NCBI GenBank assembly: GCA_019694955.1 | Contig: JAIBAX010000007.1 | Span: 1 to 64,000, forward strand | Length of the DNA stretch: 64,000 nucleotides | Source of the DNA: Chitinophagales bacterium | GTDB taxonomy: Bacteria > Bacteroidota > Bacteroidia > Chitinophagales > JADIYW01 | Direction: 5' to 3' | Shown here: in pieces, positions 40,061 to 44,833 of the stretch | How the letters are laid out: every line of letters begins with the position of its first letter | Numbering within the stretch: position 1 is the stretch's first letter | Translations under genes and position numbers: made by a program | The notes under the pieces: model-generated | Database searches by the model: none | Told to the model about the DNA's origin: nothing | What the model saw: only the letters and a program-made list of their open reading frames with translations

Positions 40061-40222
40061 TTATAAGAATTGTCTTAAAAGTAGTTCAATAGATGCATAC
40101 TTTCCTCTTGCTGTACGAACATTTATCAAAGCCTTTTCTTTTCGAGCTTTTTCATTCCACCAATATGAAAAAATACTCGGTTTGGATAAACTCTTCCAAT
40201 ATTTCTTATGCCTTGCAGTAAT
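40061..40222 (-). pseudogene. Out-of-frame C-terminal extension after the lipoprotein gene
   Basis: Just past the stop of the lipoprotein at 40206, another frame stays open for about 53 codons, reading ARHKKYWKSLSKPSIFSYW, then basic sequence to LLLRQFL-stop. Its composition (Trp, Tyr, Lys, Arg) looks like real protein. It has no start of its own, so it may be the former C-terminus of the lipoprotein displaced by a frameshift, or a separate gene remnant. Confidence 0.35.
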
Positions 40223-40889
40223 TTCTTATATTGATTTTCTTAACGCTATTTTGTGAATATTCAATTATCAAGAAATCGCCCTTCCTATAAATTTCGTGAT
40301 ACCATGGATAACATAATGAATTCTTCCCTATTCTAATTTGGAATGTTGTTGATTTGCCCGTTAACAAATTTTGAATAATCCAAGTTACGTTCCCTTCTGC
40401 TGAGTTTGGAGGAAATTTTATGCAACATACAAAATTGTCTGTGGAGTCTGTATATTCTATGTCGTCCTCAAAGAATATCGGTTTTAACTGCTCTTTCAAA
40501 GGAAGAAATAAATGCTGGGAATATGATCCGGTGTAATTCGTCATTAAACAAATAAAATTATCATTATGCCATAAAACTGTAGGTGGCATGCGATAACCCT
40601 GATTATTCGTTAGTGTCATCAAGTTCTCCGACCATGATGCAATTTTGTTACCCCATTCAATCTGATAGATCCCCTCTTTATCTATGGTGGTTAATTTCAC
40701 AAATGGATATTTACTTTTTGATGTATCTGTTATAAAAAAAGTAATAGGAGTCCATTTTTCATTTTCTAAAACGGTTTTAGCGCTCGTTTTGGTGTCGGAT
40801 TTATTGTCTTTCACTAAGTCAGTTTTATTTGATTTGCAACCAACAAAGAATAAAATTAGATACGTTAATATATAAAATTTAGTTTTCAT
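40206..40889 (-). CDS. Lipoprotein of unknown function
   Basis: A 227-residue lipoprotein with signal MKTKFYILTYLILFFVGCKSNK (lipid Cys18), a Lys/Asp/Thr-rich linker and a beta-rich body (YPFVKLTTIDKEGIYQIEWGN). No family recognised. It may be shortened by a frameshift. The spacer before it (40890-41206) holds a direct repeat and a possible barrel-protein remnant. Confidence 0.6.
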   Translation of the reverse strand: MKTKFYILTYLILFFVGCKSNKTDLVKDNKSDTKTSAKTVLENEKWTPITFFITDTSKSKYPFVKLTTIDKEGIYQIEWGNKIASWSENLMTLTNNQGYRMPPTVLWHNDNFICLMTNYTGSYSQHLFLPLKEQLKPIFFEDDIEYTDSTDNFVCCIKFPPNSAEGNVTWIIQNLLTGKSTTFQIRIGKNSLCYPWYHEIYRKGDFLIIEYSQNSVKKINIRNYCKA

Positions 40890-40924
40890 AACAAGACTAA
40901 GGTCAGACTGCCTACAATCCTTTA

Positions 40925-40942
40925 GTAAAAATAGGATAAATC
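40925..40942. repeat. 18-bp direct repeat, copy 1
   Basis: GTAAAAATAGGATAAATC, identical to 42193-42210. An ACAATC a few bases upstream is also shared. The second copy abuts the core of the attC-like site at 42138-42194. Confidence 0.75.
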
Positions 40943-40945
40943 ATC

Positions 40946-41075
40946 TTAATATTTTCCTATCTTAAAAGAAAAAGAGACATGCATTTTATTACCAAGTATG
41001 ACTGCCATACCTCCAAATTCTATCCTAAACATTATTATTTGCTTTACCTCCAAAATACTCAAGTCCGAATCTCAT
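40946..41075 (-). pseudogene. Possible remnant of an outer-membrane beta-barrel gene
   Basis: Two overlapping short frames read MRFGLEYFGGKANNN and then FRIEFGGMAVILGNKMHV followed by SFSFKIGKY-stop, the typical alternating end of a barrel with a terminal aromatic. One frame change joins them. No upstream part remains. Weak evidence based on composition only. Confidence 0.25.
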
Positions 41076-41206
41076 CACTCCTATTTTTATGACAAACACC
41101 TAAAAATTGCATAGGCAAATTTTGAATCCAAAAAACTAAAGTTTTATACCAGTCGCCACCACGCCGCTATGTACCGATTTTTTAGTGAAAATTGGGTTTT
41201 TTCAGA

Positions 41207-41342
41207 AGCTGACGGTTTCGGGATTGCCGAAGGGCGGGACTTAAACCACAAAACTTGATTTGAAAAACTAATGTTTCTTGAACCACAAAACTGTCTTTGG
41301 AACAAGAAAACCCGCCATTTGGGTAGGTGCTGTTTTAGCTAC
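41207..41342 (-). repeat. attC-like site 3 (end of DUF4272 cassette)
   Basis: About 136 nt. Outer cores are AGCTGAC (41207-41213) and GTTTTAGCTAC (41332-41342) as read on the plus strand. Arms are GC-rich and imperfectly complementary (GGGCGGGACTT versus AAAACCCGCC), with a loop holding two copies of AACCACAAAACT. Nearly the same size and layout as the site at 42729-42865. Confidence 0.6.
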
Positions 41343-41347
41343 AGTTT

Positions 41348-42109
41348 TTATGTGCTTAAATCTGTTTCATCCCATTCAATTCCATTAGAAAGCATCCAAG
41401 TTAAGGATTGTCTTCTTTCGTGTATGACACCACCATTTCCAATTGGGTCAAATGAAGGTGGAACAGTTTGTCTTCCCAATTGTGCACTTCTTACTGCATT
41501 ATGAAGGCAATAAAATAAGTCTTCCTTCTTGATTAATTCCTCTTCTGATATTGTTTCTTTTGTTTCAAGCCAATCCCCTATTTTTCCTTCAAGTGGACAG
41601 GTAAAATTGATTAAAATTTCTTGCATTTGCTCACCTGTCATCATTTCTCCAGTTATGTCAGGAGTATTATAACCAAAGTACCAAGCTAAAGACCAAGCAT
41701 TCTCAAATTTCCAACCAATGGCGTTTCTTAATTGCTCATCATTTCTTGATGAATTTAAAATTCCCTTTTCATTATCTGCTAAAAATAAATCTAATCCATT
41801 AGTCGAAACAAAGTTTAAAATCCTTTCACTAGATAATTCATTTTCAGGTACCATAAGCCAAAGGACAATTGCCTTTATTGCATTTAATCTTTTGGCAATT
41901 TCGATCTTAGGTCTAATTTTTCTTTCAAATTCAGTTGGCAAGGAAGTAGCTGGTTTGAAACCTGAATTTAGACATATTTTAATATTGTCAAGCCTTAAAT
42001 CTGTCATCCAAGGGATACTTTTGTATGTTTCCAATATATCATCTTGGTTCGTTTGTTTTGGTTGGTCATTAATTTTTGATGAACCAAATATTTTCTTGAA
42101 AAAACTCAT
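41348..42109 (-). CDS. DUF4272 family protein (cassette 3)
   Basis: A 253-residue cytosolic protein starting MSFFKKIFGSSK. DUF4272 features: RLNAIKAIVLWLMVPENE, AWSLAWYFGY, LFYCLHNAVRSAQLG and VPPSFDPIGNGGVIHERRQSL. Function unknown for the family. The start is the ATG 29 bases after the cassette core GTTAGCTAC; a longer TTG frame would run through the attC-like site. It is the only gene of its cassette. Confidence 0.85.
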   Translation of the reverse strand: MSFFKKIFGSSKINDQPKQTNQDDILETYKSIPWMTDLRLDNIKICLNSGFKPATSLPTEFERKIRPKIEIAKRLNAIKAIVLWLMVPENELSSERILNFVSTNGLDLFLADNEKGILNSSRNDEQLRNAIGWKFENAWSLAWYFGYNTPDITGEMMTGEQMQEILINFTCPLEGKIGDWLETKETISEEELIKKEDLFYCLHNAVRSAQLGRQTVPPSFDPIGNGGVIHERRQSLTWMLSNGIEWDETDLST

Positions 42110-42137
42110 ATTTCTCTGATGTTGTTTGTTTAAAATT

Positions 42138-42194
42138 GTAGCTAACGTTAAGGCTGATTTGCGATGTGAAAATAACTCCCACAATCTGTTGGGT
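42138..42194 (-). repeat. attC-like site 2 (end of toxin-antitoxin cassette)
   Basis: About 57 nt. Plus-strand cores: GTAGCTAAC (42138-42146) and GTTGGGT (42188-42194); the second is RYYYAAC (ACCCAAC) on the minus strand, complementary to the start of the same cassette at 42729-42735. The interior is a short imperfect dyad. Confidence 0.6.
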
Positions 42195-42437
42195 AAAAAT
42201 AGGATAAATCGTGTACCTCATAAAATAATAGATAGTCTCTAATAATTTTTATCTTGACATTTTCTATATCAGAATTTCTACCGCTATTTGGATTTAAGGA
42301 AATATTCTTAAAGTTTCAACTATTAACTTATTTAGTTTTATACTAAAATTTCTAGATTTATTTCTATTTATCCAATATTCTAAGATTTCCTTTCTTTCTA
42401 AGTTTGCTTTTTGTGTCCAGATTATTTTCTTAGCCAT
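42190..42437 (-). pseudogene. Broken RelE/ParE-type toxin gene
   Basis: The ATG at 42437 overlaps the antitoxin end by 16 bases. The frame reads MAKKIIWTQKANLERKEIL, EYWINRNKSRNFSIKLNKLI and VETLRIFP, then stops at 42294. A shift of one base restores LNPNSGRNSDIENVKIKIIRDYLLFYEVHDLSY, the typical second half of a ParE/RelE toxin. The expected last strand (such as IWDTRQ) is missing because the frame runs into the attC-like site. So it carries both a frameshift and a C-terminal loss, and the toxin is probably inactive. Confidence 0.7.
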
Positions 42438-42655
42438 TCCTCAATTTCAGCGTTTGCAGATAATTCAGACAATATATTTCCATTTTTATATTCGAGTCTT
42501 GATTCTTCAATTCTTAATTTTTGTACGTCATTTGTTACATAATTCAATTCTGATAATTCAAAGTCAATAAGGTTTTGTAATTCTTCAATTATGTAATTTT
42601 CTCGTACTTGAGAAATCTTATTTATTAAGTCTAATTTTAATTCTGCAATACTCAT
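42422..42655 (-). CDS. Antitoxin of a RelE/ParE-type toxin-antitoxin pair
   Basis: A 77-residue acidic helical protein: MSIAELKLDLINKISQVREN, LQNLIDFELSELN, then a charged tail ending NAEIEEWLRK. This is a common small antitoxin type of Bacteroidota paired with ParE/RelE toxins. The downstream overlapping frame is the toxin, now broken. Toxin-antitoxin pairs are frequent cargo of integron cassettes. The 94 bases upstream hold only the cassette core and leader. Confidence 0.75.
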   Translation of the reverse strand: MSIAELKLDLINKISQVRENYIIEELQNLIDFELSELNYVTNDVQKLRIEESRLEYKNGNILSELSANAEIEEWLRK

Positions 42656-42728
42656 AATAGAATTGTTCTTGCATCAAACATATAGAAATTAATTGAAAAA
42701 TGCAACAGATAGTCTACATTTAGTTGAC

Positions 42729-42865
42729 ACCCAACGGCAGACTCCCGCTTTGGGTCGGGCGGGGATTTTCAGCACTAAACTTCATTAGATGCACAAAGCT
42801 TGAATTTAGCACTTCACTGTCATAGAAGCACAAAACCCCCGCTTTTGCAAAGCGGCTGTTATCGG
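42729..42865 (-). repeat. attC-like site 1 (end of ParB-PRTase cassette)
   Basis: About 137 nt. Plus-strand cores: ACCCAAC (42729-42735) and GTTATCGG (42858-42865). Arms CCCGCTTTGGG..GCGGGGATTTT and AAAACCCCCGCTTTTGCAAAGCGG are imperfectly complementary; the loop has short GCACAAA/AGCACTT repeats. Same size class and layout as the site at 41207-41342. Confidence 0.6.
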
Positions 42866-42874
42866 TTGTTTTTT

Positions 42875-43684
42875 TCAAAATCGTCTTGGAAGTAATGCGT
42901 TCCATTGTTTCTTTTGCCCTTTATTGTCGGAATAACTGTATCCATCTTTCCAAAAAATCGGCATACTGTTATTAGGTATTGTAAAATAAAACGCTAACAT
43001 TAATCCGAGATCAAAATCAAACGAACCACTATTTTTTAGCATATCGTTTACTGATTTTATTTTTTCTTTTTCTTTCGCAGAAAAAACTTTTGATTGTTCA
43101 GTATAATGTTGATGTTCTTCCCCTAAAATAATACCTGGCAGAACAGTAAAATGAGTGTTTTCAGTCACATTTTCAATCCCTTTTGTAGTGGCACAAAGGC
43201 TTAATAAGTAGGGGATATGGCTTGGTTTAATGATTTGATTAACTTTATTATGAATGAAATCAACTGATTGCGTACCTGTACCAATAATATCTTCTACAAA
43301 AATTATTGTACTGCCTTCTGGTAATGAATTCAGCTCCCAAGTCTTTTTTATCTTAGATTGATTTACTTCAATTGTGTGAGAAAAGTCATATAAAATTATA
43401 TCTCCACTTTTACCTGCGTTACCAAACCCTGTTATAAAACAGTTTTCTTTTGAGAAAATATCTTCATTATCATATACTATCTGTCTTATTGTTGATCTAA
43501 TCTTTGGGGCTGTGTAGATCTCAAAATTTGACAATATTTTGAATATCAAACTCCAAGGCAAACCAGTCTGATTTTTCCATTGAATAATAGAATTGTGCTT
43601 ATACCCTTGATAGGAAGCAAATTTTGCTTCTAAACTCTTTCCGTCCTTCCAGAGGAAATAAATTTTGTCAATAAGTTCTCTCAT
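42875..43684 (-). CDS. PRTase-like protein (conflict-system PRTase type), cassette 1
   Basis: A 269-residue cytosolic protein starting MRELIDKIYFLWKDG, two codons after the ParB-like gene. The core has a type I phosphoribosyltransferase PRPP loop, STIIFVEDIIGTGTQSVDF, preceded by GDIILYDFSHTIE. Flanking helical regions and the C-terminal FWKDGYSYSDN and WNALLPRR segments resemble the PRTase-like proteins found in predicted nucleotide-centred conflict systems. The usual second acidic residue of the PRPP loop is Glu-Asp (VED). Substrate unknown. It is tightly coupled to the ParB-like gene and ends ten bases before the cassette's attC-like site. Confidence 0.7.
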   Translation of the reverse strand: MRELIDKIYFLWKDGKSLEAKFASYQGYKHNSIIQWKNQTGLPWSLIFKILSNFEIYTAPKIRSTIRQIVYDNEDIFSKENCFITGFGNAGKSGDIILYDFSHTIEVNQSKIKKTWELNSLPEGSTIIFVEDIIGTGTQSVDFIHNKVNQIIKPSHIPYLLSLCATTKGIENVTENTHFTVLPGIILGEEHQHYTEQSKVFSAKEKEKIKSVNDMLKNSGSFDFDLGLMLAFYFTIPNNSMPIFWKDGYSYSDNKGQKKQWNALLPRRF

Positions 43685-43685
43685 A

Positions 43686-44642
43686 TTAGTCGATATCTTC
43701 AAGTAATTCACTAATAGTTTTTTGTAATAGTTGTAACTGAATTACATATGAATAATCGCTAATTAAATCTGAATTAATATCTTTAAGAGTTGTGTTTAAA
43801 TAGCTAACATACTTTATAACATTATTTCTTGTTCGATCATCTTCAATTTCAGGAGTTACGAAAACTTCGAGACCTTTATTGTTGTTTTCAATAAACTCAC
43901 TTACTTTCGATGAAAAGTCTGTTAATTGTCCACTCTTCTCAAAGTAGCCCATTGACTTTCTGATCTCTCTAAATTCCTTTACATCATAAAAAGTTTTTTG
44001 CTCTAAAAACTTATCTATCATCTTATCAACTAATCGTTCAGTACCTTCTGGAAATGAGAATTCTGGCAGACTACTTAATTTATGAACAATAGGATAGAGT
44101 TCAATAAAAAAATCAGTTGAGATTTTACCGCCTTTTTCCATTAAAATGTCTCTATACTTTTTAGGATACCACAAAAGAGTTTTGCACCTTCTAATCATAG
44201 ACCGACTTACGCCTGTAAAATCTGATAGAATACTTTCTTGATCTGTTCCTATTTTGTCTATAACCGTTTCCAATTTCAATGCAGTTGGAAATAGTGCCCA
44301 TTCTTTTCTAAAATGATGAATATTGAACATATATAAAATGTTCTGAGTGTCATCCGAAGGTTCGTCTATAATGTTGGCTGGAATTATGTCCAAATTTAAT
44401 TCTTGAGCACAACGCCAACGTCTTTCCCCATCTAAAAGAATGTATGGTGTTTTAGGGTGATTTTTTGTGTTTCTGTATACAGTCACAGGAACAAGAATAC
44501 CAACCTTGCTTATAGATTTTTTTAGTTCGTTCAAATCTTCCGGATCAAAAATTAATCTCGGGTTAAATGGATTTGGTGAAATGTCAGAAACATTTATATT
44601 AAATAGGGTTCTGTTTTCACTTGGTTTTATGTTGTCATTCAT
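43686..44642 (-). CDS. ParB-like domain and HTH protein, cassette 1
   Basis: A 318-residue protein. Residues about 15-100 form a ParB/Srx-like domain (ISPNPFNPRLIFDPEDLNELKKS, then PYILLDGERRWRCAQEL, where GERR is the nucleotide-binding box). A HTH follows (about 130-165: ESILSDFTGVSRSMIRRCKTLLWYP). The C-terminal 150 residues are helical and unrecognised. There is no ParA partner, so it is not a chromosome-partition gene; pairing with a PRTase-like protein suggests a regulatory or sensing role. Symmetric motifs upstream could be its binding sites. Confidence 0.8.
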   Translation of the reverse strand: MNDNIKPSENRTLFNINVSDISPNPFNPRLIFDPEDLNELKKSISKVGILVPVTVYRNTKNHPKTPYILLDGERRWRCAQELNLDIIPANIIDEPSDDTQNILYMFNIHHFRKEWALFPTALKLETVIDKIGTDQESILSDFTGVSRSMIRRCKTLLWYPKKYRDILMEKGGKISTDFFIELYPIVHKLSSLPEFSFPEGTERLVDKMIDKFLEQKTFYDVKEFREIRKSMGYFEKSGQLTDFSSKVSEFIENNNKGLEVFVTPEIEDDRTRNNVIKYVSYLNTTLKDINSDLISDYSYVIQLQLLQKTISELLEDID

Positions 44643-44667
44643 TGTTAGTTGTTTGTCGTTTTAAAAT

Positions 44668-44734
44668 AACCGATAACTCGTTTATATGTCTGCAAAAAAC
44701 AGACATATCTCCAACCGTATGTCATATATGTCTG
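44668..44734 (-). promoter_or_regulatory. Cassette 1 start core and possible operator repeats
   Basis: AACCGATAAC (44668-44677, plus strand) is the inverse of GTTATCGGTT at 42858-42867, the end of the same cassette. Just upstream of the operon, ATATGTCTG (44684-44692) and CAGACATAT (44700-44708) form a perfect 9-bp dyad with a 7-nt spacer, and a third ATATGTCTG lies at 44726-44734. These may bind the ParB-like/HTH protein or be the remains of an attachment site. Confidence 0.5.
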
Positions 44735-44833
44735 CAAAACATGCTTCCAATCTCAAAATTAACCATAAGCCATTAAATATCCAAATTAGCAAAATGGCTA
44801 AAGTATTGCATTTTCATTTGAACTTAGGACAAC

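Follow-up and report, generated by a model that had tools for sequence, protein, structure and literature searches.

An integrase-less cassette cluster in a Chitinophagales genome points to a probable Bacteroidota integron lineage without the IntI-specific insertion

Gene cassettes at the locus

The region under study lies on contig JAIBAX010000007.1 of a Chitinophagales bacterium (GCA_019694955.1), the first 64,000 nucleotides of which are referred to here as the window. On the minus strand, between positions 41206 and 44737, an attI-like block is followed by a cassette with a ParB-domain and a phosphoribosyltransferase gene, by a segment with an antitoxin-like open reading frame (ORF), and by a further cassette with a DUF4272 gene (Table 1). 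Each of the two cassettes ends in an imperfect palindrome, here called W1 and W3. As judged from sequence, the region is a remnant of a Bacteroidota-type integron that has no integrase, that is, a cluster of attC sites lacking integron-integrases (CALIN).

An initial annotation, made from the letters alone, had proposed three cassettes (units 1–3), each opening with a short core and closing with its inverse, and these cores were all found where it had placed them. Unit 1 starts with GTTATCGGTT (44677), which pairs with the end AACCGATAAC (42867-42858). Its lone mismatch, at position 11, is an A/G difference that recurs in many cassettes elsewhere. In unit 3, GTTAGCTACA is matched by TGTAGCTAaaAC with two extra bases. 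Both start and end matches were confirmed in the sequence.

The same arm logic was observed in other arrays. Among 129 cassettes (two of them counted twice, in overlapping loci), the seven bases past the opening GTT matched the reverse complement of the cassette's own attC arm at six or more positions in 104 cases, whereas a match of at least 6/7 was reached in 3% of the comparisons between starts and foreign attC ends. The match runs on beyond a mismatch of one or two bases, as in the “about 15 bases, one mismatch” of the initial annotation. The two arms inside one inserted site agreed in just 3 of 100 sites. A start complementary to the cassette's own attC arm, as in a circular intermediate, was hence seen widely, units 1 and 3 of the window included. 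Beyond overlapping loci, no identical cassette was found in two genomes among the fetched arrays.

Table 1. Features of the window on the minus strand, in order of reading
Feature	Position	Strand	Remarks
attI-like block	44678..44737	(-)	Repeat architecture, directly before cassette 1: direct repeat GCAGACATATA, inverted copy (ATATGTCTG), T-run, second direct repeat GCAGACATATAAACGA, G/TT of cassette 1
Cassette 1 (GTTATCGG...CCGATAAC)	42858..44677	(-)	Start is the reverse complement of its own attC arm, 10 nt + mismatch + 3 nt
ParB N-terminal domain ORF, 318 aa	43686..44642	(-)	PF02195 E 4.8e-18; TIGR00180 70.2 bits
PRTase-CE family phosphoribosyltransferase ORF	42875..43684	(-)	PF24390 E 4.8e-33
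attC site W1, end GTTGGGTG	42728..42868	(-)	R1 69.4 bits, site outside seed; E 3.3e-12 genome-wide
Segment 2, without attC of its own	42147..42735	(-)	Antitoxin-like ORF 42422-42655 (77 aa), then frameshifted ParE/RelE-like frame
Repeat copy, possibly attI-like (site 2 of the initial annotation)	42147..42210	(-)	Adjoins GTT start of cassette 3
Cassette 3 (GTTAGCTAC...GTAGCTAaaAC)	41332..42146	(-)	Carries DUF4272 gene 41348-42109, PF14094 E 5.1e-23
attC site W3	41206..41342	(-)	R1 67.3 bits, site outside seed; E 9.9e-12 genome-wide
Repeated non-cassette stretch	40895..41205	(-)	Ends in second repeat copy (core at 40942), then ORF 40206-40889

Identity and fold of the attC sites

DNA searches of the window's genome with dyads 1 and 3 returned further sites in other contigs. 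A covariance model was built from 11 aligned sites, all from other contigs of this genome, with W1 and W3 left out. The model recovered both left-out dyads in the 4.1-Mb genome (Table 1) and called about 20 sites in total, across 8–9 contigs.

The fold was assessed in 117 attC sites. Standard pairs occupied 90.9% of the cells, compared with 65.8% for shuffled partners and at most 43% for slid partners, and compensatory (double-sided) changes were present at 17 of the 20 stem pairs. The covariation score of the alignment was 0.54 versus 0.14 in shuffles; the alignment was fitted to the covariance model and therefore leans towards its structure, yet the gap is still large. In a structure-free MAFFT alignment, compensatory changes already appeared in 11 of 13 predicted pairs. 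The covariation agrees with folding; the folded bottom strand would be the putative substrate of recombination. The sites are folding imperfect palindromes with AAC/GTT ends, the junction triplet of W3 being GTC, decayed from GTT. No Rfam family reached its gathering score in the window, and none matched the best sites at E <= 1. On this sequence evidence W1 and W3, which lie about 1.4 kb apart, are almost certainly cassette recombination sites.

Site 2 was also considered as an attC and was rejected, as it gave no model match, a fold z-score of -0.11 and an arm match of 7 nt only. There are therefore two attC sites and not three, and the third junction is of another kind. Of the three cassettes without an integrase originally proposed for this Bacteroidota genome, units 1 and 3 were upheld by the covariance model and no integrase was found in the genome, while site 2 was not retained. 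It overlaps a repeat (GATTTATSCTATTTTTACC...), the core of which gave 12 matches in 16 loci of the same genome, often ending at the GTT start of a unit. This repeat is possibly a second attI type that has multiplied in the window's genome, a role we offer as a suggestion because, of the 8 copies that could be tested, only 3 had a downstream arm that matched, and the control gave 20%.

At least 12 copies of the repeat GATTTATSCTATTTTTACCAACRGATTGTGGGAGG...CTGCC were noted (L031-L037, L097-L098, and positions 40942 and 42210 of the window), and a linked stretch, AGCGGCGTGGTGGC..., lies behind terminal attC sites in this genome. The stretch at 40895-41205 likewise has copies of 82-88% identity behind other arrays there. 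A pair of attC sites about 5.4 kb apart (G000:C6:36734-36870 and C6:42192-42327; L035, L059) has near-identical sequence behind both members (AAAATGCCAAAACCGCACCCTCCTCAACGTT).

The integrase and its neighbourhood

No canonical IntI was found in the window's genome or its family, so the classical IntI-type array of the initial annotation was not borne out; across Bacteroidia the sites appear to be served by a different integrase. One type of tyrosine recombinase in the family, with about 340-375 amino acids, was encoded close to attC sites or at the ends of contigs. Its neighbourhood was analysed in 80 named integrase loci, nearly all titled Bacteroidota and one being a metagenome-assembled genome titled Phycisphaerales. 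A total of 94 attC sites occurred in 39 of these loci, every one of them oriented away from the integrase gene. By hand count, the array was downstream in the same direction in 20 of the 39 loci and divergent in 19. In relatives (39 loci) the integrase accordingly stands beside the array, which it does not in the window's own genome. Sites within 1.5 kb were seen at 10 of 30 integrase loci, and attC near Xer genes at 1 of 21 loci.

This polarity bears on the possibility that the dyads are no recombination sites, being instead dispersed repeats or hairpin elements of the terminator, repetitive extragenic palindromic (REP) or miniature inverted-repeat transposable element (MITE) type that happen to lie between genes. 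Other repeats are scattered through the window's genome and some arrays consist of a single site, as such elements would allow. Each dyad arm, however, finds its counterpart at the far side of the unit it belongs to and not in its partner arm, and the constant direction relative to the integrase is joined by exact boundaries at GTT; we regard dispersed repeats as extremely unlikely.

Two arrays of G011 (L083:8899-9117 and L085:17097-17312) are preceded by only the last ~70 integrase codons, 82-84% identical to an intact copy (L146, at a contig end). The plasmid of Chryseobacterium sp. SNU WT5 (L281, NZ_CP041688) carries a complete integron of this lineage, the array of which is broken by an IS110 element and a group II intron.

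The IntI-specific insertion, around patch III, was absent from all 44 integrases aligned. The interval in question measures 39-41 residues in these proteins, against 62 in IntI and 38-47 in Xer. Two of the integrases scored 178.5 and 184.9 bits with TIGR02249, below its curated cut-off of 265, and NF040815 (“XerA/integron integrase”) gave 210-224 bits. The integrases were also placed in a tree together with three IntI and 13 Xer proteins. A branch with support of 100/98 set IntI and the Bacteroidota integrases apart from Xer, and the IntI group was well supported. The Bacteroidota integrase would accordingly be a sister lineage to IntI that lacks the IntI insertion and has an extra N-terminal domain.

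Relatives without this N-terminal domain (TnpF of Acinetobacter, and also L140) were placed beside or among these integrases. The Acinetobacter plasmid pJAT2044 (L280:1552-2217) encodes, beside tet(X3) and ISVsa3, a tyrosine recombinase that is a relative of the Bacteroidota integrase (47% over residues 118-351) and has no N-terminal domain; its grouping with these integrases was weak (83/64).

The AlphaFold2 model of the integrase (predicted local distance difference test score 84) had IntI4 bound to attC (2a3v) as its top solved structure. The extra domain comprises about 75 residues, predicted as beta-beta-alpha-beta-beta-alpha. Weak matches to DUF5710 were obtained for 16 of 22 N-terminal domains; the best had E 1.6e-5, and the single member for which a score was displayed fell short of the gathering score. 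The fold search of the domain returned nothing significant: in Foldseek, the HARP domain of SMARCAL1 (4o66) was second in the list at E 0.65 and was absent from the second-look matches listed. DUF5710 and HARP are thus weak leads, all below accepted thresholds. It would be a guess that this domain takes the place of the IntI insertion in recognising hairpins.

attI and the insertion boundary

The repeat layout of the attI-like block is unique in the window and was obtained in none of 20 shuffles. A comparable layout stands before the first cassette beside the integrases of several relatives. As an identifier, a sequence matrix from relatives was tried and set aside, since it did not single out the window's block as the architecture test had done.

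In relatives, the start of a first cassette was found in all 14 loci examined closely, where it matched the arm of its own attC at 6-7/7 positions. For L182 that start lies further inside the array, and the true first cassette was perhaps missed. The first cassette mostly begins about 0.1-0.25 kb from the integrase, behind boxes like CTTCCTCTATAAGCAA or TGCGTATATTTGAGA, each running directly into GTT. Five related locus pairs share homology that spans the integrase and attI and stops at GTT, past which the cassettes differ. These were Parapedobacter soli and P. defluvii (90.5% identity), two Chryseobacterium plasmids (89.7%), L230/L249, L232/L239 and L254/L271. The insertion point at attI is base-exact in these relatives, whereas the window's block is a match in architecture only. 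Among the present results, such breaks come nearest to a direct view of insertion. One plasmid of the Chryseobacterium pair comes from an isolate of rainbow trout; on it, five attC sites follow the integrase in array order, and the system can therefore travel on plasmids.

The proposed mechanism is that genes, each closed by a folding attC, would be inserted by the tyrosine recombinase between the G and TT of attI. The cassette circle would unite the attC arms R'' and R', and the folded attC strand would recombine with attI or another attC, again between G and TT. A role for the N-terminal domain of the integrase may form part of this scheme.

Distribution across Bacteroidia

A refined attC model found sites in 11 of 13 genomes of the window's family, with up to 38 in G011, and in 253 of 395 Bacteroidia genomes (138 of 197 genera). 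In the class-wide scan at most eight candidates were scored per genome, and the per-genome counts are lower bounds. An integrase profile of seven members, with presence set at E <= 1e-60, matched 199 of the 395 genomes. Both were present in 170 genomes, attC only in 83, integrase only in 29 and neither in 113 (odds ratio 8); as genome counts ignore relatedness, the p-value of 1e-19 should not be read at face value. The neighbourhood evidence is independent of this statistic. No phage record was found to carry the integrase.

Co-occurrence also speaks to whether the cassettes are moved by another recombinase, such as XerC/XerD acting in trans, with the adjacent gene as a passenger. In its favour are the genomes with attC that lack the adjacent type at the cut-off, together with the presence of Xer-type tyrosine recombinases in all genomes of the window's family. 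Yet attC sites are present in 96 of the 99 strongest integrase carriers, are hardly ever near Xer genes, and in relatives attI is conserved along with the adjacent gene. A trans-acting recombinase is thus highly improbable.

Canonical IntI (TIGR02249 above cut-off) was detected in 1 of the 395 genomes. This sole copy, at G154:C40:3592-4530 (L081), scored 428.5 bits and served as a positive control; no attC of this family was found in that genome at the model threshold. These results can be set against a classical origin, in which a canonical IntI integron, lost or located elsewhere, delivered the cassettes and the Bacteroidota recombinase is incidental. CALINs are described as common in bacteria in a review (PMC8618304), and one sampled relative does have IntI. 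That relative is nonetheless the one without these attC sites, a different recombinase flanks the arrays at constant polarity, and the array-side homology breaks at an attI adjoining the Bacteroidota recombinase. We consider the classical origin very unlikely.

Cargo and state of the window's genome

The window's genome (G000) encodes six tyrosine recombinases, none of this integrase type at E <= 1e-60, and no integrase remnants were found by tblastn beside its fetched arrays. Because the 103-contig assembly was judged 100% complete, loss of the integrase is likelier than an assembly gap. The GTC at W3 and the broken toxin frame fit decay. An integrase of this lineage may once have served this genome, its gene since gone, and the cassettes of the window would now be fixed and partly decayed.

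The ParB-domain and PRTase-CE genes (42875-44642) form a two-gene cassette and could be a defence pair. The toxin-antitoxin cargo initially proposed held for the antitoxin-like 77-aa ORF, which had no match in Pfam or NCBIfam, and did not hold for an intact toxin: the frame behind it (42180-42435), which resembles ParE/RelE in our reading of the translation, is disrupted by frameshifts. At E <= 1e-20 the DUF4272 gene was found in only 2 of the 389 other Bacteroidia genomes, where no attC accompanies it; this shows patchiness and not movement.

Assessment and comparison with known systems

In relatives, the arrays and the neighbouring integrase very probably constitute a working integron-type system. 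Its direct basis is the sites, their conserved fold, the arm logic, the polarity, the base-exact attI boundaries and the integrase beside the arrays. Several points weigh against this reading. Recombination itself is deduced from sequence, none having been observed. The relatives' matrix ranks the attI-like block of the window 41 among 2181 GTT positions, and for this reason the window's attI is assigned by architecture alone. The boundary comparison draws on the arrays of relatives and on none of the window's own units, so that the test of exact boundaries proposed in the initial annotation turned out favourably in the former only. The tree has just three IntI sequences, with support of 94/98 for the new clade itself, and the integrase hidden Markov model also catches members without the N-terminal domain. 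Finally, at the cut-off used, 83 genomes have attC without integrase and 29 the reverse.

With these points considered, we think it fairly likely that this is a second, widespread integron lineage and the main cassette system of Bacteroidia, in which the integrase reads folded attC without the insertion regarded as essential in IntI, probably aided by the new N-terminal domain. If true, about half of the sampled genomes of this phylum, which is dominant in the gut, in soil and in water, have a cassette system of their own, a plasmid of a fish isolate included, and the lineage offers a natural experiment on why IntI needs its insertion.

Integrons were nearly absent from Bacteroidetes in the surveys as recounted with IntegronFinder 2.0, at first only In0 and later Salinibacter, the latter being the one complete integron reported there for the phylum (PMC9024848). 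A review names Bacteroidota among the integron-bearing phyla (PMC8618304). The integrase detection rule set out in the archaeal integron paper is the IntI-specific domain (PMC9668308). Surveys select by this domain and so, by their very design, cannot see a lineage that lacks it. The present lineage has been overlooked by current search tools and occurs in about half to two thirds of the sampled Bacteroidia genomes. No published description of it was found in the literature searched, preprints and most subscription journals lying outside the search.

Like a CALIN, the window has at least two attC sites within 4 kb in a genome without an integrase; unlike one, its cluster belongs to a Bacteroidota lineage and was found with the covariance model of this analysis. 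With archaeal XerA and bacterial XerC-XerD, the integrase shares catalytic and SAM-like domains without the IntI insertion, as well as the NF040815 match, whereas Xer proteins form a separate branch, have almost no attC nearby and lack the extra N-terminal domain. The canonical integron (IntI class 1, Vibrio IntI4) is alike in its tyrosine integrase beside attI, GTT-opening cassettes that end in a folding attC, arm logic, exact insertion between G and TT, C-terminal SPLD motif and sister position in the tree. It is unlike in that the Bacteroidota integrase has no IntI insertion, bears the extra N-terminal domain, scores 178-185 bits with TIGR02249 (<265), often runs in the same direction as the array, and has attC and attI sequence families of its own. 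The system thus appears to act like an integron, yet lacks the IntI domain by which current tools recognise one.

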